NCBI RefSeq assembly: GCF_009363655.1
Contig: NZ_CP045393.1
Coordinates: 868,001-932,000, forward strand
Source of the DNA: Roseovarius sp. THAF27
Lineage (GTDB): Bacteria; Pseudomonadota; Alphaproteobacteria; Rhodobacterales; Rhodobacteraceae
Direction of reading: 5' to 3'
Length of the DNA: 64,000 bases
A program made the translations under genes and the position numbers. Under the pieces are notes generated by a model that searched no databases, was not told the DNA's origin, and saw only the letters and a program-made list of their open reading frames with translations. Each line of letters opens with the position of its first letter. Position 1 is the stretch's first letter. Positions 47,474 through 63,523 of the stretch are shown here, piece by piece.

Positions 47474-47531
47474 ATGGGGGACCAGTCCCCCATGCCCCCG
47501 GCCTGATATGGGGGACCAGTCCCCCATGCCC
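47474..47531. repeat. Two tandem hairpin repeats
   Basis: ATGGGGGA-CCAG-TCCCCCAT followed by GCCCC occurs at 47474-47498 and again at 47508-47531, with a 9-base gap. Each copy is an 8-bp stem with a CCAG loop. Confidence 0.8.
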
Positions 47532-47613
47532 CCTGGGATATTTTCGGCCAGAGGAAAGGGCTGCAGGGTGGTAGAAGATGGTTCGGATGGATTGACCCGA
47601 GCGGCTACAACGA

Positions 47614-47661
47614 CTAGTGTGTTACGTCTCGCTCGCCACTATCGCTGCCCAAAAACACTAG
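47614..47661. promoter_or_regulatory. Inverted CTAGTGT/ACACTAG pair upstream of nrdJ (NrdR-box candidate)
   Basis: CTAGTGT at 47614-47620 and ACACTAG at 47655-47661 are perfect inverted repeats centred 41 bp apart, about four helical turns. The second is 17 bp before the nrdJ start. The ACACTA half-site resembles the end of NrdR boxes that control ribonucleotide reductase genes. The match to the full 16-bp consensus is incomplete. Confidence 0.4.
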
Positions 47662-47678
47662 ACAAAACAGGTCCTCGC

Positions 47679-49937
47679 ATGACTCGATTCGCCGCTCCTA
47701 TCGCCGAGGCCATCTGGGATATGAAGTACCGCCTGAAAGAGGCGGACGGGACGCCCATGGATGGCACGGTGGAGGACAGCTGGCGCCGGATCGCGCGGGC
47801 GGTGGCGCAGGCCGAGGACGACCCCGGGATCTGGGAAGAGCGGTTCTATCGCGCGCTGGAGGATTTCAGGTTCCTGCCCGCGGGGCGGATCACGGCGGGC
47901 GCTGGCACGGGCCGGGCGGTGACGCTGTTCAACTGTTTCGTGATGGGCACGATCCCCGACAGCATGAGCGGCATCTTCGAAGGTCTGCGCGAGGCGGCGC
48001 TGACCATGCAGCAGGGCGGCGGGATCGGGTACGACTTCTCGACCATCCGGCCGAAGGGCGCATTGGTCGAGGGTGTGGCGGCCGATGCCAGCGGGCCGCT
48101 GAGCTTCATGGATGTGTGGGACGCGATGTGCCGCACGATCATGAGTGCCGGCAGCCGGCGCGGGGCGATGATGGCGACGATGCGCTGCGATCACCCGGAT
48201 GTCGAGGAGTTCATCGCGGTCAAGGGCGACGCGGCGCGGCTGCGGATGTTCAACCTGAGCGTTCTGGTGACCGATGATTTCATGGAGGCCGTGAAGGCGG
48301 ACGGGCCGTGGGAACTGGTCTTTGGCGGCAAGGTCTACAAGACGGTGCAGGCGCGGGACCTGTGGAACCGGATCATGCGGGCGACCTACGATTTCGCCGA
48401 GCCGGGCGTGATCTTCATCGACCGGATCAACAAGGCCAACAACCTGCATTATGCCGAGACGATCGCGGCGACGAACCCCTGTGGCGAGCAGCCGTTGCCG
48501 CCCTATGGCGCGTGCCTTTTGGGGTCGATCAACCTGGCGCGGCTGGTGACGGAGCCGTTCCAGGCGGGCGCGGGCATCGGCGAGGACGCGCTGGCCGAGC
48601 TGGTGGGCACGGCGGTGCGGATGATGGACAACGTGGTGGACGTGTCGAAATTTCCGCTGCCCGAGCAGCGCGCCGAGGCGCAGGCCAAGCGGCGGATCGG
48701 GCTGGGGGTCACCGGGCTGGCCGACGCGCTGTTGATGTGCGGGCTGCGCTATGGCGATGACGAGGCGGCGGCGCAGTGCGAGGCGTGGATGAAGGCGATT
48801 GCGCGGGCGGCTTACCTGGCGTCGGTCGAGCTGGCCAAGGAGAAGGGGGCGTTTCCGCTGTTCGAGGCGGAGCCGTACCTGCAAAGCGGCATGATGCAGG
48901 CGATGGACGAGGACGTGCGCGCGGCGGTGGCCGAGCACGGCATCCGCAACGCGCTGTTGACCAGCGTGGCGCCTACCGGGACGATCAGCCTTTATGCTGG
49001 CAACGTGAGTTCAGGGATCGAGCCGGTCTTTGCCTATTCCTACACCCGCAAGGTGTTGCAGAAGGATGGCAGCCGCACAGAGGAAGAGGTGGTGGATTAC
49101 GCCGTGCAGATGTGGCGCGAGACGAAAGGCGATGCGGAGCTGCCGGAGTATTTCGTCAATGCCCAGACGCTGGAGCCGCAGGCGCATGTGAAGATGCAGG
49201 CCGCCGCGCAGAAATGGGTCGACTCGAGCATTTCCAAGACGATCAACGTGCCCGCCGATATCGGGTTCGAGGCGTTCAAGGAAGTCTACATGCAGGCCTG
49301 GGACACCGGCTGCAAGGGGTGCACGACCTACCGGCCCAACGACATCACCGGCAGCGTGCTGAGCGTGGAGTCGGAGGACAAGGTGCCGATGCCCGTGGAG
49401 GGCGGCGAGGTGGTCTATATGTCCGAGCCGCTGGACCGGCCGACGGAGCTGGAGGGCGCGACCTACAAGCTGAAATGGCCCGACAGCAGTCATGCGATTT
49501 ACGTCACCGTGAACGATATCGTGCTGGACGGGCGGCGGCGGCCCTTCGAGGTGTTCATCAACTCCAAGAACATGGAGCATTTCGCCTGGACCGTGGCGCT
49601 GACGCGGATGATCAGTGCGGTGTTCCGGCGGGGCGGCGACGTGAGTTTCGTGGTCGAGGAGCTGAAGGCGGTGTTCGATCCGCGCGGCGGCGCGTGGATG
49701 AACGGCAAGTACATCCCCTCGATGCTGGCCGCGATCGGCGGCGTGCTGGAGAACCACATGATCAATATCGGCTTTCTCGAAGGCGAGGGGCTGGGCCTGA
49801 AGGAAGACCCGACGGCCAACGTGGTGAACCTGGAGGCGCCGCGCGGCCCGGCCTGTCCGTCCTGCGGCAGCTATGACATGCGCAAGGTCGAAGGCTGCCT
49901 GACCTGTGCGTCCTGCGGTCATTCGAAATGCGCGTGA
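47679..49937 (+). CDS. nrdJ: Adenosylcobalamin-dependent (class II) ribonucleoside-diphosphate reductase
   Basis: A 752-residue reductase that makes deoxyribonucleotides under any oxygen tension using vitamin B12. Active-site features are the first redox Cys in 'TLFNCFVMGTIPDSM', 'NPCGEQPLPPYGACLLGSINLARLV' (N-x-C-x-E, radical Cys) and 'APTGTISLYAGNVSSGIEPVFAYSYTRKV'. The C-terminal Cys cluster 'PACPSCGSYDMRKVEGCLTCASCGHSKC' has a zinc-ribbon look. The ATG at 47679 begins 'MTRFAAPIAEAIWDMKYR', typical of alphaproteobacterial NrdJ. It is the sole reductase gene seen here. Confidence 0.96.
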   Translation: MTRFAAPIAEAIWDMKYRLKEADGTPMDGTVEDSWRRIARAVAQAEDDPGIWEERFYRALEDFRFLPAGRITAGAGTGRAVTLFNCFVMGTIPDSMSGIFEGLREAALTMQQGGGIGYDFSTIRPKGALVEGVAADASGPLSFMDVWDAMCRTIMSAGSRRGAMMATMRCDHPDVEEFIAVKGDAARLRMFNLSVLVTDDFMEAVKADGPWELVFGGKVYKTVQARDLWNRIMRATYDFAEPGVIFIDRINKANNLHYAETIAATNPCGEQPLPPYGACLLGSINLARLVTEPFQAGAGIGEDALAELVGTAVRMMDNVVDVSKFPLPEQRAEAQAKRRIGLGVTGLADALLMCGLRYGDDEAAAQCEAWMKAIARAAYLASVELAKEKGAFPLFEAEPYLQSGMMQAMDEDVRAAVAEHGIRNALLTSVAPTGTISLYAGNVSSGIEPVFAYSYTRKVLQKDGSRTEEEVVDYAVQMWRETKGDAELPEYFVNAQTLEPQAHVKMQAAAQKWVDSSISKTINVPADIGFEAFKEVYMQAWDTGCKGCTTYRPNDITGSVLSVESEDKVPMPVEGGEVVYMSEPLDRPTELEGATYKLKWPDSSHAIYVTVNDIVLDGRRRPFEVFINSKNMEHFAWTVALTRMISAVFRRGGDVSFVVEELKAVFDPRGGAWMNGKYIPSMLAAIGGVLENHMINIGFLEGEGLGLKEDPTANVVNLEAPRGPACPSCGSYDMRKVEGCLTCASCGHSKCA

Positions 49938-50647: not shown

Positions 50648-51013
50648 TCACTCGGCTCGAGGGAACCGCGCGAGGAGCTCGCTGACGCGCGCTCCGTGCC
50701 AGAGGGTCATGCCTGAGGCTGGTAAACCCCGTTCGCGACCGATCCGGTCGAGCGACGAGGGCGTCTGGTCTGCCAGGACGCTGTGAATGTCGCGCAGCGC
50801 GGCCTCGACGGCATCTGTATCCGGGATCGGCTGACCGAAGGCGGCATGCAGGTCACAGAGCGCCGCGAACCCAATCGGATCATCGAGCGTATCCAGCAGC
50901 TCGCAGAGGCTCGCGCCGTGGCGGCGGAGGTGTTGCTCCACAGAGTAAGCCGCGCCGAGACGCGCCTCGGCGATGTCGAGGGTGGTGGTGTTGAGGGTTG
51001 TGGTATTGAGCAT
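50648..51013 (-). CDS. Unrecognised 121-residue protein
   Basis: The product begins with a repeated 'TTLNTTTLD' and continues 'IAEARLGAAYSVEQHLRRHGASLCELLDTLDDPIGFAALCDLHAAFGQPIPDTDAVEAALRDIHSVLADQ'. It is helical and acidic with two Cys. GGGAGA precedes the ATG. No known family. Its 'HLRRHGASLCELLDTLDD' has a loose counterpart in the protein at 51332 ('HFDKHGSALCNAAGLIDG'), so the two may be distant paralogues. The next gene downstream in the same direction is the frameshifted one at 50349. Confidence 0.6.
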   Translation of the reverse strand: MLNTTTLNTTTLDIAEARLGAAYSVEQHLRRHGASLCELLDTLDDPIGFAALCDLHAAFGQPIPDTDAVEAALRDIHSVLADQTPSSLDRIGRERGLPASGMTLWHGARVSELLARFPRAE

Positions 51014-51331
51014 GATGTTCTCCCTTCATGCAGTGGCGGAAACGGTGCTGGTGTGCCTGGTTCATCGGCGTCATGTTCCGTCGCAGGGAGAAGGTGGGCG
51101 TTGGCAGGTTCCTTTCGGTTGTTCTCAACTGCTGGTGTTCGGTGCTGGTGATGAGAACATTGGTCGTTCATCGGGATGACGAAGAAGAAATCTACTGGGC
51201 GCTGATTTTTTCTGCTGTCGCGCTGCATCGGCGAAGACTTTCCACGACGGTGGAAGGCTGGGTATCGGACCTTGTATTCATCCGAGGGCATGACGCCGAC
51301 CGTGCAAACCGCGCATGGCCGGCGCCGCAGG
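51014..51331. other. Spacer between two unrecognised small genes
   Basis: 318 bp. Promoter elements for the gene at 50648 should lie near its start. No gene, hairpin terminator or repeat was recognised. Confidence 0.5.
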
Positions 51332-51745
51332 TCAAGCGGCGTCCCGCGCCGGGAGGGCAAGCGCCAGCGCATCGCGCTCGTCGTCCAGTTCTCCGATCTC
51401 GACGAGGAGGTCATAGAGCCGGTCGGTGAGCAGGCAGAGCTCTTCCACCTCGATGCTCGCGGGATCGAGGAGGCTCCAGTGTGACAGGTCCGGTTCGAGC
51501 TCGTCGATGACGGGGTCGAGGGACAGGAGCCGGTGCAGATCGACGAGCCTGCGCCGCGTCGCCCGGTCAAGTCGCGACGCTTCGCGCAAGCCGGTCATCA
51601 AACGCAGGACGCGGGCCGTTCCGGCCTCGCCGTCGATTAGCCCCGCGGCGTTGCAAAGAGCCGATCCGTGCTTGTCGAAATGCGCCCGTGCGGCAGCAAG
51701 TTGCAGGTCTGCGGACAGGGTCTTCGTAGGTAAGTTGCGCAGCAT
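51332..51745 (-). CDS. Unrecognised 137-residue acidic protein
   Basis: The product 'MLRNLPTKTLSADLQLAAARAHFDKHGSALCNAAGLID...RLDRATRRRLVDLHRLLSLDPVIDELEPDLSHWSLLDPASIEVEELCLLTDRLYDLLVEIGELDDERDALALALPA' is helical and strongly acidic in its second half. The ATG at 51745 has GAGGAGG six bases upstream. A further in-frame ATG at 51802 also has a fair ribosome site and would add 19 residues. No family known. It forms an accessory pocket with the two small genes to its left. Confidence 0.6.
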   Translation of the reverse strand: MLRNLPTKTLSADLQLAAARAHFDKHGSALCNAAGLIDGEAGTARVLRLMTGLREASRLDRATRRRLVDLHRLLSLDPVIDELEPDLSHWSLLDPASIEVEELCLLTDRLYDLLVEIGELDDERDALALALPARDAA

Positions 51746-52271
51746 GGTGGTCCTCCTCGGTTGCGCATCTGCCGTTCGTGGCAGCATCAAGCCCGTCCGC
51801 ATGTTGTTTCTCCGAGATGATCCTCCTTTTTGCTGCCTCGGCTGAATGGTCGTTGTTTCGGTGTCTTGATATGGAGATTGGCCATTCGCCGGCGGCACGA
51901 AGCAAAAACTTCAGTTTTTTCGGCGCTCCCGGAAATCTCGCTTCCAGGGTCTTCAATCGGCCCCATGATGCCGATTGCCGATCTTCGCCGTTGGAGCAGG
52001 CGTCCCAAAGGATTTCTCTAATATCCACGGAAAATACAGTAGGCGGTCCAAACTTGAGGGCGACAGCCTCGTGGGACCTCTCGGACCTTCGCCGCGCTTA
52101 CTCAATTCTTGTCGCACCTGCGAGGGTCACCAGCAGGAAGGGCGGAGAGCAACCATTCGCTGCGGAACCTGCCAACATCCGCTTCGGTTGGATCTGCTGC
52201 ATCTTTCACCCAGTGTCTGTGCCTTCTGACCCGATGCCAAAGCAAAAGCCGACCCCGTTTAGACGGCGCGG
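51746..52271. other. Gene-free stretch before the aminotransferase gene
   Basis: 526 bp. It should contain the promoter of the leftward gene at 51745 and the end of the leftward aminotransferase transcript. A frame beginning GTG at 52028 lacks a ribosome site and overlaps the 51332 gene in another frame, so I did not call it. No hairpin terminator was identified. Confidence 0.5.
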
Positions 52272-53555
52272 TCAGGCCTTTGCTTCAATCGCCGCAGCCG
52301 CAGATTGGATCGCTTCAAGCGTCACGGCAAGGTCGTCCTCGGTCAGGGCGAGGCTTGGATATGTCTTGCCTGGAGATTTGAAGATCCCGTGGTGTCGCAA
52401 CGCGTCGTTCCAGAGTTTTGCGCGGCCGGCGTCGGCTGCTTGCACGGCCCTGTAGTCCCGCGCATCCTGCGCAGTGAAGACAACTTCAAACAGCGTCGCA
52501 TCGCCCACGATGCGATAGGGAATACCCGTTGGCTCAAGCGCGTCGCGGATCATGCCCCCGACCCTGTCACCAAGTTCGCGAAGCCGCGCATATTGTCCGT
52601 CGCGGCGCAGGATTTCGAGGCTTTTGAGCCCTGCCGCTGCCGCCACCGGGTTGCCCGAGAGCGTCCCGAGTTGCATGAGCCAGCCTTCCTCACCCACGGC
52701 GGCCTTGTCGAAATGCCCCATGATGTCGGCCCGCCCCACTGTCGCCGCGAGGGGGAAGCCGCCGCCGATCACCTTGCCCAAGGTACATAGGTCGGGCGTA
52801 ACGAAGTAGTGTTCCTGTGCACCGCCGTAGGCAAAACGAAAGCCCGTTACGACCTCGTCAAAGATCAGGACGATGCCGTATCGGGTGCACTCCTCGCGCA
52901 ACAATTCAAGAAAGCCCGGCGCGGGCGGGATGATGCGCTGCAGCGGCTCCACGATCAGACCGGCAATCTGCCCCTCATACTCGGCGAGAAGCGAGCGGAT
53001 GTAGTCGAAATCGTTGAAAGGCGCGATCAGCATTTCGTCGGCCACACTTTGAGGGATGCCGGCGCTGTCGGGCACCGCTTGCGGAAAATTCTCACGCCGT
53101 GAGGGGGCAAGGCTCATCTGCGCCTCGGCTGACATGCCGTGGTAGCCGCCCTCGAATTTGACGATCTTGTCGCGCCCGGTGAAGGCGCGGGCGAGGCGCA
53201 TTGCGTACATATCCGCCTCGCCGCCAGACGAGACATAGCGAAGTTGTTCGGCACAAGGGACGGCGCGGCAGATTTCCTCGGCCAGTTCGATGCCGAGCAC
53301 GTTGTTGGCGAAGAATGTCTGGCCTTTGGGGAGTTGTTCGAACACCGCGTCCAACACCTCGGGGTGGCCATGGCCCAAAAGCATGGGGCCCGATCCGATG
53401 AGGTAATCGACGTACTCTTTGCCGTCCTCATCCCAGACCCGAGACCCGCGGCCTTCGCGGATCACGATCGAGGGGTCGAAATTGCCAAAGCCCCCGGCGG
53501 GAAGCACGGCGCGGGCGCGCTCGGCCCATTCGGCTTGGGTGTGCTGTTTGTTCAT
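52272..53555 (-). CDS. Class III aminotransferase (glutamate-1-semialdehyde aminomutase-like)
   Basis: A 427-residue PLP enzyme. Family features are 'VWDEDGKEYVDYLIGSGPMLLGHGHPEVLDAV', 'YVSSGGEADMYAMRLARAFTGRDKIVKFEGGYHG', 'LIFDEVVTGFRFAYGGAQEHY' and the PLP lysine in 'LCTLGKVIGGGFPLAATVGR'. This is the subgroup near HemL and taurine/omega-amino-acid transaminases, and the real donor is not readable. It is third in the leftward operon, four bases after the enolase-superfamily gene, so it probably transfers the amino group of the pathway product or handles a semialdehyde. Confidence 0.88.
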   Translation of the reverse strand: MNKQHTQAEWAERARAVLPAGGFGNFDPSIVIREGRGSRVWDEDGKEYVDYLIGSGPMLLGHGHPEVLDAVFEQLPKGQTFFANNVLGIELAEEICRAVPCAEQLRYVSSGGEADMYAMRLARAFTGRDKIVKFEGGYHGMSAEAQMSLAPSRRENFPQAVPDSAGIPQSVADEMLIAPFNDFDYIRSLLAEYEGQIAGLIVEPLQRIIPPAPGFLELLREECTRYGIVLIFDEVVTGFRFAYGGAQEHYFVTPDLCTLGKVIGGGFPLAATVGRADIMGHFDKAAVGEEGWLMQLGTLSGNPVAAAAGLKSLEILRRDGQYARLRELGDRVGGMIRDALEPTGIPYRIVGDATLFEVVFTAQDARDYRAVQAADAGRAKLWNDALRHHGIFKSPGKTYPSLALTEDDLAVTLEAIQSAAAAIEAKA

Positions 53556-53559
53556 GTGT

Positions 53560-54663
53560 TCAATCCAGTATCAGGTCAGGCGTGCACAGAAGATCGCGAT
53601 CTGGCGTGACGCCAAGGCCCGGGCCTTCGGGCGGGGTGATGCGCCCATTGGCCCGGACGGGGCCGTCGGGTGCAATGCGCGGACTGACATAGCCCGAGAG
53701 ATCGCACACATTGAGCACCCGGGCGGGATTTGTGGCTGCAGCAAGGTGAAGTGCGGCGGCTGTGGCGATATCCGAGCCCCAAGTGCATTCGATGCACATC
53801 TTGGCGCCGAGATGCAGGCAGAGGTCGCGCGCCCTTCTCAGGGCCGAAAGCCCGCCAAATTTCGACAGCTTCAGCGCCACCGCATCCATGATGCCAAGGC
53901 TATGCGCCTGCAAAAGCGTGGCCGTATCATACGACAATTCATCCATTTTCATGGGTAGGCCCGTGGCGGCGCGCACCTGGGCGCATTCGGCGAACGTGGC
54001 GCAGGGCTGCTCCAGCATGACGTCAAGGTCGGCCACGGCCCGGCCGACTCGCGTGGCCCAGAGTGTCGTCGCGCCGCAGTTCCAGTCTCCATAGACCAGC
54101 GGGCCGGGGCCTACGGCCTCGCGGACCTTGGTCAAGCGTTCAACATCCGTTTGCCAATCGCCCGAGGCGCCCAGCTTGGCCTGAAACTGCGTGATGCCGC
54201 CGGTCTGCGCGTCGCGGGCGATACGCGCCATTTCATCAGGCGCGACGCAGGTGATCGAATGATAAAGCGGCAGGTCGGCCACTTGCCTGCCACCCAGAAG
54301 CGCATAAAGTGGCAACCCTGCGGCTTTACCGGTGATATCCCAAAGCGCGATATCCAGCGCGGACTTGGCATAGGCGTGGCCGGTGAGCCAGGTATCGGCG
54401 CGGGCCATCAGGGCCTCGGCCCCCAGAGGGTCACCGCCAAGGATGACGGGTGCCAGTTCGCTCAGGGCCGGGGCAACCCCGCGCGCATAGGCGGGCAGGT
54501 AATGGGGGATCGGGCAAACCTCGCCCCAGCCGGTCAGTCCGGTGTCAGTCTCGACCGCGATCACCACGGTTTCCACCGTGTCGCAGGTTTTGCCGTCGGC
54601 CATGTAATAGGTCGTGTGACTGGTCAGCGGCACATGCCATAGCGAGAGGCGCGCGATCTTCAT
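53560..54663 (-). CDS. Enolase-superfamily enzyme (mandelate racemase / muconate lactonising group)
   Basis: A 367-residue capping-domain plus barrel enzyme. Metal ligands are Asp193 ('YGDWN'), Glu218 ('LEQPC') and Asp241 ('MDEL'). Lys163 ('QAKLG', with Gln in place of the first Lys of KxK) and Lys265 ('LKLSKFGG') stand on strands 2 and 6 as a two-base pair able to epimerise or dehydrate. 'GWGEVCPIPHYLP', 'GHAYAKSALDIALWDITGK' and 'GPGLGVTPD' resemble the hydroxyproline-betaine 2-epimerase/hydroxyproline dehydratase branch. The Trp said to bind the quaternary ammonium in that epimerase is Cys320 here. It is coupled to the FAD oxidoreductase by an ATGA overlap. Confidence 0.85.
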   Translation of the reverse strand: MKIARLSLWHVPLTSHTTYYMADGKTCDTVETVVIAVETDTGLTGWGEVCPIPHYLPAYARGVAPALSELAPVILGGDPLGAEALMARADTWLTGHAYAKSALDIALWDITGKAAGLPLYALLGGRQVADLPLYHSITCVAPDEMARIARDAQTGGITQFQAKLGASGDWQTDVERLTKVREAVGPGPLVYGDWNCGATTLWATRVGRAVADLDVMLEQPCATFAECAQVRAATGLPMKMDELSYDTATLLQAHSLGIMDAVALKLSKFGGLSALRRARDLCLHLGAKMCIECTWGSDIATAAALHLAAATNPARVLNVCDLSGYVSPRIAPDGPVRANGRITPPEGPGLGVTPDRDLLCTPDLILD

Positions 54664-57134
54664 TCGGCGGGCTCTGCTACGGCGTCGGTGCGCGGCAGGA
54701 GGCTCTGAGGGTCATAGGCCGGTTCACCCAGAACATGGGCGGAGCGGGGCGCTCCATGGATCACCACCTGCAATTCGGTGCCGGGACTGGCGGCGCGCGG
54801 TTTGACGTATGCGAAGGCGAGGATCTTGCCGACGGTGTGGCCATAAGCCACCGAAGCGGTAGACCCGACAACTTCCCCATTCAGCAGCACGGCTTCGCCG
54901 CCATGTCCGTCAATCTCGCCATCCGGCTCGATCTCGAGGTAGGCGCAGGTCCAGGGGTGCTGCCCGGCCTCGGCCTGAGCAGCGCTTTCTCGGGTGGCCT
55001 CAACCCCCAGGTACTCTTTGTCGAGCTTTGCAAAGCGCATGACATCGGCCTCGGGCAGGGTGACTTCGTTGGTCAATTCACCCGCGCCTTTGAAGCCCTT
55101 TTCCATCCGCAGGGCGTTCATCGCAAAGCTGCCATAGTCGGCGATGCCATGCGCCTCACCCGCCGCCCAAAGCGCGTCGTAAACGGCCAGAGCATGTTCG
55201 CGGGGGATGTGGAATTCCCACCCCAACTCACCGGCGTAGGACATGCGGAAGGCCCAGACCGGCGCACCGGCCACGATGATCTGTTGTGCCGTCAGCCAGC
55301 GGAACCCGGTATTCGACAGGTCGGCATCGGTGCATTGGGCCAAAACCGCACGGGAGGCCGGGCCGTTGAGAGCAAGAGCAGCCCAGTCGTTGGAGCGTAG
55401 GGTGACCCGCGAGTCTTCATCCGCGCGGTTCTGTTCGAGATGGTCCAGCAGGCGCTGCTCGAAAAACGCGGCGCAGACGAGATAGAAGCGGTCCTCGGCC
55501 AACCGGACCACCGTGGTTTCCAACTCGATCCGCCCCCGCCGGTTGAGCATGTGGGTCAACGCGATACCGCCCACCTTCTGTGGCAGGCGGTTCGCGACCA
55601 GGCGATCCAGCAGGGCTTCGGCACCCGGGCCGGTCACCTCGACCTTGGTGAAAGCGGAAATGTCCATGATGCCCACCGCCTCGCGCACGGCTTTACACTC
55701 GGCACCCACAACATCGTGTACCGCGTTGCGGCGGAAGGAGTAGTGATCTTCCTGCGCCACGCCATCGCGGGCAAACCAGCGGGGGCGTTCGTGTCCATAG
55801 ACCTCTTCAAAGACCGCGCCCTTGTCCTTGAGGCGCTCATAGAGCGGGGAGGGTTTCACCGGCCGCCCCGCCAAACGGTTGAAATGTGGAAAGGGGATTT
55901 CGTGGCGCAGGCAGTAATCTTCCTTGGCTTTGATGACTTGCCAGTCCTTGGTGGCGTAGTTGCCGAAGCGGCGCGGGTCATAGTCGCGCATCGAGATATC
56001 GGCCGCGCCATGCACCATCCAGCGGGCCAATTCGCGCGTGAGCCCGGGACCCCATCCGATGCCGATCTGCGTTCCGCAGCAGCACCAGTAGTTGCGCACG
56101 CCGGGTGCGGGGCCGATCAGCGGGTTGCCGTCGGGCGGATGGCTGATGGCGCCGTGCACATCGCGGGTGATTCCCAGTTCGGCAAATATTGGCATCCGGT
56201 CCAGCGCGTTTTCCAGCCACGGCATGACCCGGTCGTAATCGGCCTCGAACAACTCATTCTCGGCGTCCCAGGGGCAATGATCCTCCCAAACGGTATTGGG
56301 GTTCTCCTTTTCATAAATCCCGATCAGGCCTTTCTTCTGCTCCATCCGGATATAGCCGGACACCAGCTTGTCATCGCGGATCACGGGTAATTCGCGGTCC
56401 AGTTGCTCGAATTCCGGTACAGTATCGGTCACGAAATAGTGGTGGGTCATGGAGGTCATGGGCAGTTGCAGGCCCGACCATTCGCCCATCTGGCGGGCAT
56501 AGGTGCCGCCCGCGTTGACCACATGCTCGCAGCGAATCGTGCCTTTCTCGGTTTCAACCACCCAGTTGTCGCCCTGCCGGGTGATGTTGGTGGCGCGGCC
56601 GCGGCGGATGATACGCACGCCTTTCTGGCGCGCGCCGGCGGCCATGGCCATGGTCACGTTGGTCGGATCTACATGCCCGTCGTCGGGCGTGTGCAGCGCG
56701 CCAAGGACCCCATCGAGATTGTAGAACGGATGCAGTTCGGCCACGCGGTCGGGGCCGACAAGCTCGATGTTGAACCCCAGAGTGCGACCGACCGATAGGG
56801 TATGGCGCAGCCAGTCCATCTCGTCCTCGGTATAGGCCAGCCTGAAAGAGCCGCAGCCATGCCACGTGACAGGCTGCCCCGTCTCGGCCTCCAGGGCGCC
56901 GGAATAAAGGTCGATGTTGTAGTCCACGCATTTGCCGAGGCTGAAGCTCGATGTCGAATGCGTGATCTGTCCCGCCGCGTGCCATGTCGACCCGCTGGTC
57001 AGTTCCGCCTTTTCCAAAAGTACGGTGTCAGGCCCCCAGCCTTCGTGGCCCAGATGATAGGCCAGGCCAACGCCCATGACGCCACCCCCGACGATGACGA
57101 CGCGGGCCTGTGTGGGGAAGTTGGATTCGGACAT
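54660..57134 (-). CDS. GcvT-family FAD-dependent demethylase (dimethylglycine/sarcosine dehydrogenase type)
   Basis: An 824-residue two-part enzyme. The N-terminal FAD domain (about 10-370) opens with 'VVIVGGGVMGVGLAYHLG' and has 'ELTSGSTWHAAGQITHS', where the His is the usual site of covalent flavin. The C-terminal half (about 430-810) is the tetrahydrofolate-binding GcvT fold: 'AVGIMDISAFTKVEVTGPGAEALLDRLVANRLP', 'FRMSYAGELGWEFHIPREHALAVYDALW' and 'VGSTASVAYGHTVGKILAFAYV'. Such enzymes oxidise N-methyl groups and hand the C1 unit to tetrahydrofolate. AGGA precedes the ATG. It is the first gene of the leftward operon. Confidence 0.92.
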   Translation of the reverse strand: MSESNFPTQARVVIVGGGVMGVGLAYHLGHEGWGPDTVLLEKAELTSGSTWHAAGQITHSTSSFSLGKCVDYNIDLYSGALEAETGQPVTWHGCGSFRLAYTEDEMDWLRHTLSVGRTLGFNIELVGPDRVAELHPFYNLDGVLGALHTPDDGHVDPTNVTMAMAAGARQKGVRIIRRGRATNITRQGDNWVVETEKGTIRCEHVVNAGGTYARQMGEWSGLQLPMTSMTHHYFVTDTVPEFEQLDRELPVIRDDKLVSGYIRMEQKKGLIGIYEKENPNTVWEDHCPWDAENELFEADYDRVMPWLENALDRMPIFAELGITRDVHGAISHPPDGNPLIGPAPGVRNYWCCCGTQIGIGWGPGLTRELARWMVHGAADISMRDYDPRRFGNYATKDWQVIKAKEDYCLRHEIPFPHFNRLAGRPVKPSPLYERLKDKGAVFEEVYGHERPRWFARDGVAQEDHYSFRRNAVHDVVGAECKAVREAVGIMDISAFTKVEVTGPGAEALLDRLVANRLPQKVGGIALTHMLNRRGRIELETTVVRLAEDRFYLVCAAFFEQRLLDHLEQNRADEDSRVTLRSNDWAALALNGPASRAVLAQCTDADLSNTGFRWLTAQQIIVAGAPVWAFRMSYAGELGWEFHIPREHALAVYDALWAAGEAHGIADYGSFAMNALRMEKGFKGAGELTNEVTLPEADVMRFAKLDKEYLGVEATRESAAQAEAGQHPWTCAYLEIEPDGEIDGHGGEAVLLNGEVVGSTASVAYGHTVGKILAFAYVKPRAASPGTELQVVIHGAPRSAHVLGEPAYDPQSLLPRTDAVAEPAE

Positions 57135-57184
57135 GGCGGTTTTCCTGTTCGCAGAGTCGCATTTTCTGTGGACAGATTAAAAGA

Positions 57185-57226
57185 ACATTTGTACCATCGT
57201 CAATCATGAATGACACATATGTATCA
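57185..57226. promoter_or_regulatory. Two copies of a 12-bp motif in the divergent control region
   Basis: ACATTTGTACCA (57185-57196) and ACATATGTATCA (57215-57226) fit ACATWTGTAYCA and are exactly 30 bp apart, three helical turns. The second is part of the near-perfect palindrome TGACACATATGTATCA (57211-57226) that covers the first codons of the RpiR gene. They are good candidates for the RpiR operator. Confidence 0.6.
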
Positions 57227-58093
57227 AATACGATCCTTGATCGCCTTACGGCCGAATGGGACAAGCTGACTCCCGAGGCGCAGAAGGCTGCGCGCTACGT
57301 ACTGGAAAACCCTGCAGATGTAGGCGTTTCCACCGTGCGCGAGATCGCCGTTGCGGCGAATGTCAAACCCAACACCTTTGTTCGCATGGCCCGGCAGGTC
57401 GGGTTCGAAGGCTACGAGGATTTTCGCGCGCCCTTCCGCGAGGCGATCCGGCGGGGCGGCGTCAGTTTTCCTGACCGCGCCCGCTGGCTTCAGGATATTC
57501 GCAAGTCCGGTGAGATTGGCGGGCTTTATGCCGATATGATCGGTGCCGCCGTGCGCAATATAGATGAGACCTTCGCGGGGATATCCGAAGAGGCGCTCAA
57601 GGCAGCCGCCGAAGCGATCTGGGCATCGCGCCAAGTCTTCACCCTTGGCGTGGGCGTTCACAATTCGAACGCGCGCAACTTCACCTATCTGGCGTCCACC
57701 GGCATGACCCAGTTCCACGCCATACCGCGCCCCGGCTCCACCCCGGTGGACGACCTGGCCTGGGCTGATGGCCGCGATGTGTTGATCGCGATGACGATGA
57801 AACCTTACCGTACCGAAGTCATCGACGCGGTGCGCATCGCCCGCGATCAGGGCGTCACCGTCATCGCCATCTCTGACAGCCCGGCCAGCCCGATTAGCCT
57901 TGCCGCCAACCACAGCTTCACCGTGGCGGTCGACACGCCGCAGTTCTTTCCGTCATCCGTGGCAACCGTTGCCCTGCTCGAAACCCTGCTCAGCTTCGTC
58001 ATCTCCGTTGCCAGCGATGAGATCGTGGAACGGGTCGAGAAATTCCACCGTCGCCGGCACCAGCTCGGCCTCTATCAGGAGGAGCCCGAATGA
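57206..58093 (+). CDS. MurR/RpiR-family transcriptional regulator
   Basis: A 295-residue regulator. The N-terminal helix-turn-helix (about 1-78) is 'ILDRLTAEWDKLTPEAQKAARYVLENPADVGVSTVREIAVAANVKPNTFVRMARQVGFEGYEDFRAPFREAIRRG'. The C-terminal SIS domain (about 125-260) has 'VFTLGVGVHNSNARNFTYL', 'RDVLIAMTMKPYRTEVIDAVRIARDQGVTVIAISDSPASPISL' and normally senses a phosphosugar or other small ligand. The ATG at 57206 begins the conserved part. It lies between two divergent operons and overlaps the Rieske gene by ATGA, so it probably controls both. Confidence 0.92.
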   Translation: MNDTYVSNTILDRLTAEWDKLTPEAQKAARYVLENPADVGVSTVREIAVAANVKPNTFVRMARQVGFEGYEDFRAPFREAIRRGGVSFPDRARWLQDIRKSGEIGGLYADMIGAAVRNIDETFAGISEEALKAAAEAIWASRQVFTLGVGVHNSNARNFTYLASTGMTQFHAIPRPGSTPVDDLAWADGRDVLIAMTMKPYRTEVIDAVRIARDQGVTVIAISDSPASPISLAANHSFTVAVDTPQFFPSSVATVALLETLLSFVISVASDEIVERVEKFHRRRHQLGLYQEEPE

Positions 58094-59172
58094 ACGCACC
58101 GCTCACACATTCGCTTGATGCGCGTTACTACACCGATCCAGCCATCTTCGAGGCGGAACGAAAGGGTGTTTTGGCCCGGACATGGCAGTTCGCCGGCCAC
58201 GGCAGCCAACTGGAGCACCCCGGCGATTACTTCGCTTTCGAAATGGCGGGCGAAAGCCTGTTCTGTATCAAGGGACGCGACGGCGAGATCCGCACGTTCT
58301 ACAATGTCTGTCAGCACCGGGCGCATCAGCTTGTCAATGGCGAAGGCTCCACCCGCGTCGTGGTCTGCCCCTACCACGCCTGGACTTACGAGCTGACCGG
58401 AGAACTGCGCGCGGCGCCGAACACCAAGTCCGTTCCAGGCTTCGACAAGTCCGCTGTCTGCCTGACCGAGGTGCGCACCGAACTTTTCCTGGGCTTCATC
58501 TTCGTCAATCTCGATCCTGACGCGGCCCCGATGGACGCGTGGTTCCCGGGGGTGCGCGAAGAGTTGATTCAATGGCTGCCGCACTGGGAAAGCCTGAAAC
58601 CGCTTGAGTGGGTGGAAATCCCGGAAAACTGCAACTGGAAGGTCTCGGTCGAGAACTACTCCGAATGCTACCATTGCTCGCTCAACCATCCGACCTTCGC
58701 GACAGGGATCATCAAGCCCGAAACGTATGACATCCAGCCAGAAGGCTATTGCCTGAGACACACGACGGAATGTCAGAGCCTTGAGAACATGAGCTACGAC
58801 ATCGACCGCTCAAAGCCGCATTCCGAGGAATATTCAAGCTGGTTCCTATGGCCGATGTTCAGCTTTCAGGTTTATCCGGGCAACGTGCTGAACACCTACC
58901 ACTGGCGCGCGATCGACCCTGATCATGTGGTTGTCTGGCGCGGCTGGTATACCGAAGGCGGCTGGGACAGCGAAGTGATCCGCCGGCTGGCGGTGCAGGA
59001 CCGGGCCACAACCGTGGAAGAGGATATCCACCTCGTCGAGTCCGTGCAGCGCGGGCTTAAATCGCGTGGCTACATACCGGGTCCGCTGGTTGTCGATCCG
59101 GAATGTGGCGTGAACTCGGAGCACTCCGTGATGACGCTGCAAAAATGGATGCGCGAGGGAATCGAAAGCTAA
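58090..59172 (+). CDS. Rieske non-heme iron oxygenase (betaine N-demethylase-like)
   Basis: A 360-residue oxygenase alpha subunit. The Rieske [2Fe-2S] ligands are Cys74-x-His76 ('VCQHRAH') and Cys93-x2-His96 ('CPYHAW'). The catalytic iron site is 'ENYSECYHCSLNH' with His195 and His200, and Glu192 in the place of the bridging Asp. That Glu is seen in carnitine- and betaine-demethylating members (CntA-, GbcA-, stachydrine-type). The enzyme should hydroxylate an N-methyl group, releasing formaldehyde. No reductase partner is adjacent. Coupled to RpiR by ATGA. Confidence 0.9.
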   Translation: MNAPLTHSLDARYYTDPAIFEAERKGVLARTWQFAGHGSQLEHPGDYFAFEMAGESLFCIKGRDGEIRTFYNVCQHRAHQLVNGEGSTRVVVCPYHAWTYELTGELRAAPNTKSVPGFDKSAVCLTEVRTELFLGFIFVNLDPDAAPMDAWFPGVREELIQWLPHWESLKPLEWVEIPENCNWKVSVENYSECYHCSLNHPTFATGIIKPETYDIQPEGYCLRHTTECQSLENMSYDIDRSKPHSEEYSSWFLWPMFSFQVYPGNVLNTYHWRAIDPDHVVVWRGWYTEGGWDSEVIRRLAVQDRATTVEEDIHLVESVQRGLKSRGYIPGPLVVDPECGVNSEHSVMTLQKWMREGIES

Positions 59173-59173
59173 G

Positions 59174-60619
59174 ATGCGCGCGTATTGGAAAAACTACATC
59201 GACGGCGCGTGGTGTGATGGCGGCGCGGCGCGGATTGACGTGATCAACCCGGGCACCGGCGAGAACCTGGCGGAGCAGGCTTTGGCGGATGAGGCCGACG
59301 TGGACCGCGCCGTGCAGGCCGCCAAACGCGTGCATCAAACGGGGGTGCTGCGCGACATGCGTCCGCTTGAGCGGGGGCGCTTGGTGCAGGCCATGGGGCA
59401 GTACCTGCTGGATAACCTTGACGAGGTGGCCAATGTCCTGACCCAAGAACAAGGCAAGCCGCTGTGGGAGGCCGAGATCGAGGTACGCGGCGCGGCGCTT
59501 TACTTCGAGTATTACGGCAATCAGGCCTCAACGGTGGAAGGCAAGTCGATCCCGCTGGGCGCGGGCTATTACGATTTCACCGATTGCGAGCCTTATGGGG
59601 TATCGGCGCAGATCATCCCGTGGAACTATCCCGTCGAGATGACCGCGCGGTCGCTGTCGGCGGCTTTGGCCACGGGCAATACTTGCGTGATCAAGACCCC
59701 TGAACTGACGCCGCTGAGCAATTATATTTTCGCCCATGCGGCTGAGACGGTGGGCCTGCCCAAGGGGGCGGTGAATATCCTGTGCGGGTGGGGCCGTCAG
59801 GCGGGCGCGACCCTGTCAGGCCACCCGGATGTCAATCAGATCGTCTTCACCGGCTCGGTGCCCACGGGTGTCGCCATCGCCACGGCGGCGGCGCAGAACG
59901 TGGTGCCTTGCGTTCTGGAACTGGGCGGGAAATCGGCGGCCATCGTGCATGAGGACGCCGATCTGGAGGCGTTTGAGAATGACATCCGCTGGGGCATCTA
60001 TTTCAACGCGGGCCAAGTGTGCAGCGCGATGAGCCGGGTGATCGTGCATGAATCGCGTCACGATGAACTGGTCGAGCGGGCAGTAAAAGTGGCCAAATCC
60101 CTGTCTGTCGGGCCGGGGATGGAACGGACCGAGGCGGGGGCCAACATGGGGGCCATGGTCAGCGAAGGGCAGCGCGACCGCGCCGCCGGGATGGTCTCGG
60201 ACGCCGAAGCGCAGGGAGCCACGGTGGCCACGGGCGGGCGCAAAATGAACATTCCCGGCGCCTTCCTTGAACCCACTGTTATGGCGCATGTCACCCCCGA
60301 GATGACCATCGCGCAGGAGGAGGTCTTTGGCCCGGTCCTGTCGGTGCTCAAGTTCCGCGACGAGGCGCAGGCGATGGAGATCGCCAATGGTACTCAATAT
60401 GGCCTTGTGGGCGGCGTCTTTACCACCGATCTGGACCGCGCCACCCGCGCGGCCCGGCAGATGCGGGCAGGGCAGGTTTTCGTCAACGAATGGTTCGCGG
60501 GCGGTGTGGAAACCCCCTTTGGCGGTTTCGGCAAATCCGGCTATGGCCGGGAAAAGGGGCGCGAGGCGCTGTGGAATTATGTGCAGACCAAGAACGTTGC
60601 CATCAAGTTGAAAGGCTAA
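59174..60619 (+). CDS. NAD(P)-dependent aldehyde dehydrogenase
   Basis: A 481-residue ALDH. Active-site features are the oxyanion Asn in 'IIPWNYPVEM', cofactor-binding 'CVIKTPELTPLS', the general base Glu in 'CVLELGGKSAAIV', the nucleophile Cys in 'YFNAGQVCSAMSRVIVHES' and 'EEVFGPVLSV'. It belongs to the broad betaine-aldehyde/semialdehyde group. It follows the Rieske gene by one base, so it probably oxidises an aldehyde made downstream in the same pathway. 'ENLAEQALADEADVDRAV' at the start is normal. Confidence 0.92.
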   Translation: MRAYWKNYIDGAWCDGGAARIDVINPGTGENLAEQALADEADVDRAVQAAKRVHQTGVLRDMRPLERGRLVQAMGQYLLDNLDEVANVLTQEQGKPLWEAEIEVRGAALYFEYYGNQASTVEGKSIPLGAGYYDFTDCEPYGVSAQIIPWNYPVEMTARSLSAALATGNTCVIKTPELTPLSNYIFAHAAETVGLPKGAVNILCGWGRQAGATLSGHPDVNQIVFTGSVPTGVAIATAAAQNVVPCVLELGGKSAAIVHEDADLEAFENDIRWGIYFNAGQVCSAMSRVIVHESRHDELVERAVKVAKSLSVGPGMERTEAGANMGAMVSEGQRDRAAGMVSDAEAQGATVATGGRKMNIPGAFLEPTVMAHVTPEMTIAQEEVFGPVLSVLKFRDEAQAMEIANGTQYGLVGGVFTTDLDRATRAARQMRAGQVFVNEWFAGGVETPFGGFGKSGYGREKGREALWNYVQTKNVAIKLKG

Positions 60620-60622
60620 AAC

Positions 60623-61003
60623 ATGAGCGCATTTGGCGAAGACCTATTCCTCAAGGGGCTTGAACAGCGCAAGGCCACGCTGGGGGCGGAATACGTAGAA
60701 AAGAACCTCGCAGCCGCCGATGAGTTCACCCGCCCCTTTCAGGAGGCGATGACGGCGTGGTGCTGGGGATTCGGCTGGGGCGATGATGTGATCGACGCCA
60801 AGACACGCTCGATGATGAACCTTGCCATGATCGGCGCGCTTGGCAAGATGCACGAATGGGAGATCCACTGCCGCGGCGCGATCAACAATGGCGTTACACA
60901 AGAGGAAATCCGCGCCATCATCCATGTGATCGGCATCTATTGCGGCGTCCCGCAGGCGCTCGAGTGCTTCCGGACAGCGCGCAAGGTGCTGGACGAGACC
61001 TGA
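60623..61003 (+). CDS. Carboxymuconolactone decarboxylase-like (CMD) protein
   Basis: A 126-residue all-helical protein. 'FQEAMTAWCWGFGWGDDVIDAKTRSMMNLAMIGALGKMHEWEIHCRGAINNGVTQEEIRAIIHVIGIYCGVPQALECFRTARKVL' follows the CMD/AhpD fold, with His-Glu and Cys near 'HEWEIHCRG' and the 'YCGVPQALEC' end. True PcaC decarboxylates carboxymuconolactone. Here the other protocatechuate genes are absent, so the step is unknown and may be a lactone or keto-acid reaction within the RpiR-linked pathway. It lies three bases after the ALDH stop and is last in the rightward operon. Confidence 0.88.
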   Translation: MSAFGEDLFLKGLEQRKATLGAEYVEKNLAAADEFTRPFQEAMTAWCWGFGWGDDVIDAKTRSMMNLAMIGALGKMHEWEIHCRGAINNGVTQEEIRAIIHVIGIYCGVPQALECFRTARKVLDET

Positions 61004-61438: not shown

Positions 61439-62335
61439 TCATGCGATTCGGAGAGCCCTCTCTCCTGCAACTTCTCGTTTGATCTCCTCGATTAGCGTAT
61501 CGATCGCCGGATTGCGTAGTTTCCGTGCACGGCGCGCGACATAAGTGACGTCAGGCGGCTCTACAAAGCAGTCCTTCAGGATTTCCATGTCCGGGGTTAC
61601 GTGCCGCTCATTCAAGATGGCAACACCAAGACCGCTCCGCACACCGGAGACGATGCCGGCGGCACTGGCGCATTCCAGTGTGGTCGCAAATACTGTCCCG
61701 TCCTCCTGAGCAACGTCCATCGCCCACCGGCGGTAGAAGCAATTCTCATCGAATGAGAGAAACGGAACGGTGGTGTCTGAGCTGAGGTCGAAATCCGGTG
61801 ACTTCACCCAGAAGAGGCGTTCCCGAAACAGTTCGATGTCATGTGCTCGGACCTCGTGCGTGAAGATCTGCATGATGGAAAAGTCGATCTCACCGGCCGC
61901 AAGAAGATCTTGTAGAACGAGGCTTTGAAGCACCCGCGTCCGCACAGAGACGCCGGGATGCAGACGCGAAAACCGGCCAAGGATGTGACTGAGGTCCGAA
62001 CAAGTAGTGTCCTCGGTGAGGCCGAGACTGATTTGTCCTCGCACCGATGTCTTCGAGAGCGAGCGCAAAGCCTCGTCATGAATGGCAAGGATGCGTCGCG
62101 CGTAGCCCAAGAGGTCGCGCCCCGTATCCGTAAAAAGGGGCGCGCCGGGGCGCCTGCTGAGAAGGTCGCAATCAAGGCTGGTCTCGAGCCTTTTGATCTT
62201 ATGGCTCACAGCTGATTGCGACAGTCCAAGGTGCGCCGCGGCGCGGGTCACCCCCCCGTGGTCCTCGATCGCGCTCAGGGCACGGAGCGCATCGATGTCC
62301 AGCCGTTGGACTAATTTGTCTGACATGAATGACAT
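61439..62335 (-). CDS. LysR-family transcriptional regulator
   Basis: A 298-residue LTTR. The N-terminal winged helix-turn-helix is 'LDIDALRALSAIEDHGGVTRAAAHLGLSQSAVSHKIKRLETSLDCDLLSRRPGAPLFTDTGRDLL' (about 12-75), and the C-terminal effector domain has 'GQISLGLTEDTTC', 'PGVSVRTRVL' and 'AAGIVSGVRSGLGVAILNERHV'. A start at 62326 (residue 4) is equally possible. It lies in the same direction as the membrane protein and hydrolase genes at 62405 and 62675, as the last gene of a possible three-gene run. Confidence 0.9.
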   Translation of the reverse strand: MSFMSDKLVQRLDIDALRALSAIEDHGGVTRAAAHLGLSQSAVSHKIKRLETSLDCDLLSRRPGAPLFTDTGRDLLGYARRILAIHDEALRSLSKTSVRGQISLGLTEDTTCSDLSHILGRFSRLHPGVSVRTRVLQSLVLQDLLAAGEIDFSIMQIFTHEVRAHDIELFRERLFWVKSPDFDLSSDTTVPFLSFDENCFYRRWAMDVAQEDGTVFATTLECASAAGIVSGVRSGLGVAILNERHVTPDMEILKDCFVEPPDVTYVARRARKLRNPAIDTLIEEIKREVAGERALRIA

Positions 62336-62404
62336 CGATGGCTACCTAACTTTCAGCGATCTGCTTCATGTTACCGTCTGGCTGTTCGGCCGGCAAGCTC
62401 GACG

Positions 62405-62671
62405 TCAGCCCCATCGGACCAAGCCGATCATCGCCGAAGAAGCGTAGAACACTTGCAGCAACAGGAAGGTCCAGCGTCCGTCGATGACCGCCCATGCAGC
62501 GAAGAGACCCGACGAGATCAGCAACAAAGTGAATCCCAGGGTCTCGGCTCCGACGTTCGATGCGATCAGCAAGGCATAGGCCATGGCCAGCACTGAGCCT
62601 GTGATCTCGAATAGCGTGGTTAGCCTGCGCCGGTCTCGCCTGTTAGTCGGCCTCTGCGAGATGTCGGTCAT
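62405..62671 (-). CDS. Small membrane protein
   Basis: An 88-residue protein with a basic N-terminus ('TNRRDRRRL') and three predicted membrane helices: 'FEITGSVLAMAYALLIASNVGAETL', 'GFTLLLISSGLFAAWAVIDG' and 'TFLLLQVFYASSAMIGLVRW'. No family assigned with confidence. It follows the hydrolase gene by three bases and precedes the LysR gene, so it is likely in the same transcript. Confidence 0.75.
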   Translation of the reverse strand: MTDISQRPTNRRDRRRLTTLFEITGSVLAMAYALLIASNVGAETLGFTLLLISSGLFAAWAVIDGRWTFLLLQVFYASSAMIGLVRWG

Positions 62672-62674
62672 GGC

Positions 62675-63523
62675 TCAACCCTTCCTCTTGAGGAATTCAA
62701 CCAGCAAGCCGGAGATCTTCTCGGGCTGGTCTTCCATCGCGAAATGGCCGCACTCTTCCAACACGTGCAGTTCTGAGTCTGGGATGGCCTCGTGTAGCTT
62801 TTGCGCCCAGGCGACCACCTGCCAGGCGTCATCCGCCCCCCAGATCAGCTGAACCGGGATATTGCCGAGTTCAGCGAGTCGGGGAGTCAGTTCGCCAGTA
62901 TGCCTCGGGTCGTAATGCCGGACCTGATGGTGAAACAGGCTGCCTTGTCCGATCGGGTTGGAGATGAACTCCAGAAATGTCTCGAGCGATGTCTCGGAAA
63001 AGCGTTCCTTGTGCTGCACAGTCGACAACAACCAGTCCCGAAAATGCGCCCTGTGGTCGGCATCGGAGGCCTTGATCAACGCATCCAGACCGGCTTGCAT
63101 CTGCTGATGCGTGCGTTTCGAGGGCCAGCTGTCGAAGCTGACCACATCGATCAGGCTAAGTGAGCGAACACGCCGTTGCGAGAAGATCGAAAACCGCTGG
63201 GCGACCGCGCCCCCGATGTCGTGGGCAACGATGTGGGCGTCATCCAGTCCCCAATGATCAAGCAGCCGATCCAAAATGGGAACCTGCCCCGTGACCGAGG
63301 TGTCGATTTCCGGGTCCCATGGGCGTTCCGAAAGGCCGTAGCCCAAGAGGTCGTAGACATGCACCTTGTGGCCAGCGGCGACCAGTGCCGGCAGGATATT
63401 CCGCCAGATATATGAAGAGGATGGGGTGCCGTGGATCAGCACGACCGGAGACCCTGCGCCGTGGATGCCATGCGCGATGCGGGTGTCATTGATGAGGACA
63501 TGATCGTTGACGAGGTGGACCAT
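62675..63523 (-). CDS. Alpha/beta hydrolase with Asp nucleophile (dehalogenase/epoxide hydrolase type)
   Basis: A 282-residue alpha/beta hydrolase. The oxyanion segment is 'VVLIHGTPSSSYIWRNILPAL', then 'VHVYDLLGYGLSERPWDP'. The nucleophile elbow 'HIVAHDIGGAVAQRFS' has Asp, not Ser, as in haloalkane/fluoroacetate dehalogenases and epoxide hydrolases. The acid is likely in 'LIWGADDAWQVV' and the catalytic His in 'LEECGHFAMEDQPEKI'. Substrate is unknown. It is coupled to a small membrane protein and a LysR regulator. Confidence 0.85.
   Translation of the reverse strand: MVHLVNDHVLINDTRIAHGIHGAGSPVVLIHGTPSSSYIWRNILPALVAAGHKVHVYDLLGYGLSERPWDPEIDTSVTGQVPILDRLLDHWGLDDAHIVAHDIGGAVAQRFSIFSQRRVRSLSLIDVVSFDSWPSKRTHQQMQAGLDALIKASDADHRAHFRDWLLSTVQHKERFSETSLETFLEFISNPIGQGSLFHHQVRHYDPRHTGELTPRLAELGNIPVQLIWGADDAWQVVAWAQKLHEAIPDSELHVLEECGHFAMEDQPEKISGLLVEFLKRKG

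Follow-up and report, generated by a model that had tools for sequence, protein, structure and literature searches.

Analysis of a 64,000-nt stretch of the Roseovarius sp. THAF27 genome (contig NZ_CP045393.1, positions 868,001-932,000; hereafter the window, to which positions are relative) indicated that the seven genes at 52272-61003 may constitute a catabolic unit for a quaternary ammonium carboxylate, jointly controlled through an RpiR-type regulator at a shared 71-bp region. We assign this reading, which is built on sequence comparison, a probability of about 0.55. The seven genes are very probably one co-inherited catabolic unit, and the substrate is likely to be an N-methylated ammonium compound. 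The unit is mobile: one Roseovarius plasmid bears it whole, and variant forms occur on plasmids of Sulfitobacter, Ruegeria and Mesorhizobium.

Gene content and arrangement were read directly from the ORF list of the window. The minus-strand half comprises a class III aminotransferase resembling glutamate-1-semialdehyde aminomutase (AT, 52272..53555, 427 aa; PF00202), an enolase-superfamily racemase/epimerase/dehydratase (ENO or ENO1, 53560..54663, 367 aa; PF13378/PF02746) and an FAD oxidoreductase fused to a GcvT domain and resembling dimethylglycine dehydrogenase (DMG, 54660..57134, 824 aa). The plus-strand half comprises a MurR/RpiR-family regulator with a SIS domain (RPIR, 57206..58093, 295 aa; PF01418, PF01380), a Rieske oxygenase alpha subunit of the quaternary-ammonium type (RSK, 58090..59172, 360 aa; PF00355, PF00848), an aldehyde dehydrogenase resembling betaine-aldehyde/aminobutyraldehyde dehydrogenases (ALDH, 59174..60619, 481 aa; PF00171) and a carboxymuconolactone decarboxylase-like protein (CMD, 60623..61003, 126 aa; PF02627). 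ATGA overlaps join ENO to DMG (54660-54663) and RPIR to RSK (58090-58093); AT/ENO, RSK/ALDH and ALDH/CMD are spaced by 4, 1 and 3 bp, respectively. A preliminary description of this DNA, made from its letters and ORFs, had given the same seven genes with these coordinates, overlaps and 1-4 bp gaps, and had placed the two halves around one control region; the ORF list agreed throughout, and a Pfam search returned the family proposed for every gene.

The two halves were found to be inherited together. In a family sample of 295 genomes (one per species, the THAF27 genome included, up to six candidates scored per genome), RSK orthologs of at least 52% identity were found in 51 genomes (next best 41%) and ENO1 orthologs of at least 66% identity in 46 (next best 42%). 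Both occurred in 45 genomes, RSK alone in six, ENO1 alone in one and neither in 243 (Fisher p 2.4e-45, kinship ignored). Counted from ENO1, and so independently of RSK as the starting gene, 45 of the 46 ENO1 genomes also hold RSK. Among named genomes the best 80 of 221 relatives of RSK were kept, with gene presence called at BLAST thresholds of 30-50% identity, so that absences may reflect contig ends or thresholds. A divergent core, DMG on one side and RPIR followed by RSK on the other, was present in 74 of these 80 loci; 66 of the 74 also held ENO1, 61 AT, 57 CMD and 37 ALDH. Additional genes at the core loci were MDR and extra enolases (44 each), dddQ-type (32), sulfotransferase-like (22), arylmalonate-decarboxylase-like (21), GFA (14) and BCCT (2). 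Counting the listed gene families only, the exact seven genes of the window in the same order were seen in 8/80 loci (L127, L143, L145, L149, L150, L161, L162, L164), and CMD, in those named loci where it was found, showed 82-93% identity.

Across the class, RSK was matched at E 1e-90 or better in 21 of 385 genomes. In 20 loci at a greater distance, DMG and RSK diverge in 14; of the others, L226 and L230 are short contigs and no DMG was seen in L234, L235, L240 and L241. The AT of nine distant loci was only a 39-42% relative. Co-conservation of the core across loci led us to reject chance neighbours. The preliminary description had named separate conservation of the two operons as the observation that would count against it, and this was not seen, RSK and ENO1 occurring together in 45 genomes and alone in six plus one and the core persisting both in the named loci and on plasmids. 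One named locus (L139) carries the label Halieaceae, which probably reflects a binning error. The arylmalonate-decarboxylase-like gene at L079:8849-9688 scored 32.7 bits and belongs to a type present in 21 of the 80 named loci.

A near-search of plasmid records gave two matches. On plasmid pTHAF8_b of Roseovarius the full set of seven is present (99% of the query, 81% identity), and a gene for a PotD-like ABC transporter adjoins AT on the same strand. A conjugative plasmid of Sulfitobacter has an MDR gene in addition to the seven. A protein search found relatives of RSK in 13 plasmid records, four at 71% identity or above and nine at about 34-40%. The Ruegeria plasmid (L246), one of the four, holds AT, two enolases, DMG, RSK and CMD, with no ALDH listed, while the Mesorhizobium plasmid (L245) holds AT, DMG, RPIR, RSK, ALDH and CMD at 51-83% identity, plus MDR and a different enolase (36% identity). 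None of the gene set lay beside the RSK relative (40%) of a Leisingera plasmid. A GbdR-like regulator (274 of 480 bits) was also observed on the Mesorhizobium plasmid.

The preliminary description had reported neither reductase nor transporter, and none was seen by eye among the ORFs of 49-64 kb, nine of which were family-searched. No CntB-type partner lies beside RSK: the three PF00970 matches of the genome are at 1026, 3029 and 3743 kb, outside the window (868-932 kb). On the Mesorhizobium plasmid, genes for an HcaD-type ferredoxin-NAD reductase (310 bits, cut-off 450) and ETF alpha/beta stand in line with AT and DMG (L245:2132-6211), which suggests the HcaD type as a candidate for the missing reductase; the THAF27 genome has a 46% relative of it at 315.8 kb. 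As this type was found in 2/152 loci searched (L245 and, at 30%, L236), the reductase would be encoded elsewhere in most. A universal transporter was rejected in a survey of 154 loci (six of them the paralog loci L089-L094, some genomes being present twice). BCCT-type (betaine/carnitine/choline) transporter genes, counted in favour of a quaternary ammonium substrate, occurred in 5/154 and MTTB-family genes likewise in 5/154, two of the latter only 26-27% identical.

Active-site signatures of RSK were determined by pairwise alignment to carnitine monooxygenase CntA, its best solved relative (PDB 6y8j, E 1e-62, 215 bits, RSK residues 11-351 of 360). PDB 3vca/4qup, which we take to be Stc2, gave E about 2e-33 and 119 bits, and the GbcA model NF058607 gave 150.2 bits with a curated cut-off of 670. 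His195, His200 and Asp312 of RSK match CntA His208, His213 and Asp323, presumably the iron ligands, and Tyr190 and Glu192 correspond to CntA Tyr203 and the bridging Glu205; the bridging Glu had been recognised in the preliminary description. According to PMC7948474, oxygenases of carnitine, choline and benzalkonium are recognised by Tyr or Phe at CntA position 203, and the oxidative demethylases acting on glycine betaine and stachydrine by Asn. RSK carries the Tyr and the bridging Glu of the former, and the Asn signature of GbcA/Stc2 (group Vb) is absent.

The six CntA residues of the carnitine pocket (Tyr225, Phe258, Asn270, Tyr295, Tyr315 and Phe319) are replaced in RSK by Thr212, Tyr248, Gln260, Arg284, Asp304 and Thr308, as judged from one pairwise alignment. 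These residues and the NCBIfam cut-offs led us to reject membership of RSK in either CntA or GbcA. Among 149 RSK orthologs (sets of 80, 50, 12, 6 and 1, some genomes being in two sets) Gln260, Arg284, Asp304 and Thr308 were invariant, and Tyr190 was present in 80/80, 49/50 (one His), 12/12, 6/6 and 1/1. The four-residue set was found in none of six RSK paralogs (<45% identity), five of which have Phe and one Tyr at the position of Tyr190. Such a pocket speaks for a quaternary ammonium substrate whose second end is distinct. Since RSK lacks the Asn of the demethylases and carries the Tyr of the carnitine/choline/benzalkonium clade, N-demethylation in the first step is not our default reading. 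The preliminary description had proposed removal of N-methyl groups from a quaternary or tertiary amine; the single unit and, probably, the N-methylated ammonium compound are retained from it, and first-step demethylation by RSK is weakened. A second Rieske oxygenase of the RSK type, 34% identical, was noted in the same genome beside a GCV_T-domain ORF (L090, G000:C1:2818000-2837500).

The remaining enzymes were placed by family (NCBIfam, best 25 families per protein) and by solved relatives. AT scored 200.6 bits with PF00202 and 352.1 bits with HemL TIGR00713, under its cut-off of 527.3, and its best solved relative was glutamate-1-semialdehyde aminomutase PDB 5i92 (E 7e-90). The best NCBIfam match of ENO was cis-3-hydroxy-L-proline dehydratase NF043002 (332.1 bits, cut-off 500); its solved relatives were PDB 4mgg (E 8e-80, the best), presumably of cis-3-hydroxy-L-proline dehydratase-type function, and PDB 4e8g (E 4e-60), which we take to be hydroxyproline-betaine epimerase. 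A lysine on the second and another on the sixth barrel strand form the MLE-type lysine pair of the enolase superfamily, and ENO has this pair as Lys163 and Lys265 in alignments to 4mgg and 4e8g, both being kept in 62 aligned ENO1 sequences, the window included. Because both lysines are conserved, racemisation or beta-elimination is possible, two reactions that sequence does not distinguish. The position of ENO Cys293 is C in 33/62 and D in 29/62 of the aligned ENO1 sequences. One ENO ortholog (L122, G167:C48:66146-67252) was observed to contain one in-frame TAG.

DMG contains the domains PF01266, FAO_M, PF01571 and PF08669 and matched mitochondrial dimethylglycine dehydrogenase PDB 5l46 over residues 3-806 (E 9e-161). 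The motif GSTWHAAG, presumably that of the FAD-binding histidine, was conserved in 72 aligned sequences. The GCV_T domain occurs at 18 places in the THAF27 genome, which indicates that several DMG paralogs exist. ALDH scored 519 bits with PF00171 and 406.9 bits with betaine aldehyde dehydrogenase TIGR01804 (cut-off 668.6), and CMD scored 117.5 bits with the 4-carboxymuconolactone decarboxylase PcaC model TIGR02425 (cut-off 155.7).

From these families we infer the following pathway and its joint control. RSK would hold the ammonium group with Tyr190 and perhaps a carboxylate with Arg284, oxidise a carbon next to the nitrogen and split the C-N bond to release an aldehyde, with electrons supplied by a ferredoxin and a ferredoxin reductase encoded elsewhere. 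That RSK cuts this bond rather than demethylating is a lean and no finding. ALDH would convert the aldehyde to an acid; DMG would take the N-methyl groups off the amine part with its FAD, passing electrons to ETF and methyl to folate. AT would then remove the amino group, ENO would racemise or dehydrate at the position adjacent to the carboxylate, and a product may be decarboxylated by CMD.

Joint control is suggested by the region between the halves. The ATG at 57206 (295 aa, 888 nt) is preferred as RpiR start over the mechanical GTG at 57110, on which longer ORF the Pfam matches PF01418 and PF01380 were obtained, because it lies in a block conserved across loci and because annotation of the plasmid copy likewise gives 888 nt; the shared intergenic region is therefore 57135-57205, 71 bp. 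Comparison of 71 aligned DMG/RPIR regions, the window included, identified blocks such as GACAGGCT and GTCAATCATGA in 56-57 of them, the window reading GACAGATT at the first; part of the conservation is the RpiR coding start. The full pattern GACAG..TAA....ACAT.TGTACCAT.GTCAATC, built from the window and the consensus of the same sequences, has a single occurrence in the genome when up to three mismatches are allowed. A common palindromic operator was rejected: at the lengths tried, exact inverted repeats were shared by at most five of the 71 regions. Direct copies of ACAWWTGTAYCA were observed at 57185 and 57215, the second inside the RpiR coding part; with one mismatch allowed this pattern, drawn from the sequence itself, gave three matches for 0.41 expected.

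Several observations weigh against a jointly controlled pathway of this kind. None of the seven proteins reached an NCBIfam equivalog cut-off, and the C-N cleavage proposed for RSK is an extrapolation because most of the other CntA pocket residues are not kept. The aldehyde step is weakened by the presence of ALDH in only 41 of the 80 named loci. RpiR/SIS regulators usually sense sugar phosphates. A role of RpiR is moreover not universal, since the Ruegeria plasmid has only 214 bp and no RpiR between DMG and RSK (L246:9312-13092) and RPIR was not detected in the distant loci L237 and L242. Neighbouring transporters also vary from locus to locus.

The window is the compact form of a locus that, in 32 of the 74 core loci, includes a dddQ-type "DMSP lyase" gene as well. 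Such additional genes, like the reductase candidate, come to light only in other genomes and were therefore beyond the preliminary description. The 197-aa gene of this type in L085, a locus with two of them, was related to cupin lyases of dimethylsulfoniopropionate (DMSP) (PF16867; PDB 5cu1, E 1e-52; DddQ 5jso/4la2). The protein from R. lacuscaerulensis strain HKCCC1264 (L197) matched DddQ 4la2 with 284 bits, and in R. pomeroyi strain SZCCDBG043 (L196) the gene lies between AT and ENO1, with no MDR seen. Two L085 enolases matched 2rdx (682 bits) and 2pce (587 bits), which we take to be R. nubinhibens proteins solved as enolases without assigned function. Of 65 dddQ-type hits in the 295-genome sample, 23 (in 19 of 52 genomes) were at most 12 kb from an RSK or ENO1 place, tested with 50 RSK places and 10 of 46 ENO1 places; a constant location of dddQ-type genes at the RSK locus was rejected on this count. 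Away from the core, MDR, CMD, ALDH or AMD/SULT/GFA relatives lay beside the dddQ-type gene in L210, L212, L214, L215, L218 and L219, and no gene-set relatives lay beside it in L206-L209, L213, L216, L217 and the short L223; a 38% DMG relative (L205) and a 31% enolase relative (L211) were found at a distance. No dddQ-type gene is among the seven genes of the window (Pfam), and the THAF27 genome gave no match at E 1e-12. Its one PF16867 (DMSP_lyase) match, G000:C1:3928066-3928317, had 40 bits with a cut-off of 27 over half the profile, and none of the gene set was matched around it (L224).

According to PMC3338564, dddQ probably shares a transcript with an MDR028 gene in both R. pomeroyi DSS-3 and R. 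nubinhibens. The Km of DddQ for DMSP is tabulated as 22 mM in the section of PMC5395565 consulted, where dddQ mutants made 97% less dimethyl sulfide (DMS) in R. pomeroyi and 20% less in R. nubinhibens; the former figure supports a real DMSP role of DddQ. The title of Lei et al. 2018, as given in a reference list, describes the cupin family as including enzymes of unknown function, and PMC8163506 describes Alma1, the DMSP lyase of algae, as an aspartate racemase. No paper linking dddQ with mandelate racemase was found. It is conceivable, if doubtful, that DddQ has its native setting in this unit, that DddQ-type lyases are side enzymes of the quaternary-ammonium pathway and that their main natural substrate is a beta-onium carboxylate made or used there rather than DMSP. 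Candidates would be alpha-substituted beta-alanine betaines, e.g. the one that forms the head group of DGTA, a betaine lipid of algae. In such a scheme DddQ and the enolases would perform beta-elimination, DMG demethylation, AT transamination and ALDH oxidation, and CMD with the arylmalonate-decarboxylase-like gene a malonate-type decarboxylation.

A scheme along the lines of the preliminary description, in which RSK would take one N-methyl of a betaine as formaldehyde, DMG the rest through folate, AT would deaminate and ENO would epimerise the betaine as in hydroxyproline-betaine use, is possible though rather unlikely. The resemblances of DMG to dimethylglycine dehydrogenase and of ENO to 4mgg and 4e8g are consistent with it, as are GFA-family genes (Pfam: formaldehyde-activating) in 15/80 named loci. 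A cluster resembling a hydroxyproline pathway also adjoins RSK in L229; however, this is just one of 154 loci, so hydroxyproline-betaine was rejected as default substrate. Against the scheme, RSK carries Tyr where Asn has been reported for the demethylases GbcA/BmoA and Stc2, and its 150 of 670 bits with the GbcA model and 119 bits with 3vca/4qup against 215 for CntA point the same way. In L229 (L229:3-8343, G669) a DHDPS-family gene, an ALDH relative and a family-3 ABC transporter were observed beside RSK, with an FAD oxidoreductase and a proline-racemase-like ORF recognised by eye. In the portion of PMC12478193 available, other R. pomeroyi proteins are assigned to glycine betaine, choline and carnitine, which makes these substrates mildly less likely; SPO15xx and SPO16xx tags are absent from its main text, as far as available.

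A sulfonium or mixed onium osmolyte related to DMSP, with dddQ marking the true substrate class and the window lacking the lyase branch, is improbable. The 32 core loci with dddQ-type genes, the six loci where such genes stand beside gene-set relatives away from the core and the 97% loss of DMS in the R. pomeroyi mutant (PMC5395565, in part) agree with it, but DMG and AT are amine-type enzymes, 42 of the 74 core loci, like the window, are without dddQ-type genes, and acrylate tolerance of an E. coli yhdH mutant was not rescued by the R. nubinhibens MDR gene near dddQ (PMC3338564, in part). Least probable are two separate operons without a shared substrate, connected merely by their intergenic region and regulator. 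ALDH, MDR, dddQ-type and other genes do vary between loci, and six RSK genomes of 295 lack an ENO1 match, though the contigs of three (G041, G098, G198) end nearby; the core nevertheless stays together across families and on plasmids. We retain the jointly controlled unit for a quaternary ammonium carboxylate as the preferred reading.

No published function for the seven-gene unit was found in a literature search, and no paper found assigns a substrate to the RSK-bearing unit of 51/295 family genomes. One gene set would unite two solved enolases (relatives of 2rdx and 2pce) with DddQ and its high tabulated Km, and the identity of the substrate would explain these enzymes and name a methylated compound consumed by marine and plant-associated bacteria. 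The seven-gene version, free of a dddQ-type gene, is the simplest system for finding that substrate.

Next to the unit, a LysR regulator and an alpha/beta hydrolase at 61439-63523 fall outside the conserved gene set, the best NCBIfam match of the hydrolase being haloalkane dehalogenase, well under cut-off. Two small minus-strand ORFs at 50648-51898 (121 and 188 aa) are alike by eye and possibly a duplicated small protein, and the large ORF at 47508-49937 presumably encodes a B12-dependent ribonucleotide reductase.

Comparison with known systems placed the unit near several of them. It shares a Rieske oxygenase and a predicted FAD/folate demethylation with the gbcAB, stc2 and hpb systems, and ENO is related to a betaine epimerase; it differs in the missing Asn of RSK, the additional aminotransferase, CMD and RpiR, and the lack of an adjacent reductase. 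RSK retains Tyr203, Glu205, His208, His213 and Asp323 of CntA (group Va), while its pocket reads Thr, Tyr, Gln, Arg, Asp and Thr and no CntB-type reductase stands alongside. ENO resembles cis-3-hydroxy-L-proline dehydratase in its best NCBIfam and PDB matches and both catalytic lysines, and departs from it in reaching 332 of 500 bits and in having Cys293 in place of the Asp of 4mgg. DMG matches the sequence of mitochondrial dimethylglycine dehydrogenase over its full length and differs in its setting among several GCV_T paralogs of the genome. The Roseobacter dddQ loci, including L196 and L197, are orthologous to the unit and surround their dddQ-type genes with the same core, whereas the window represents this arrangement with the core and no dddQ-type gene.

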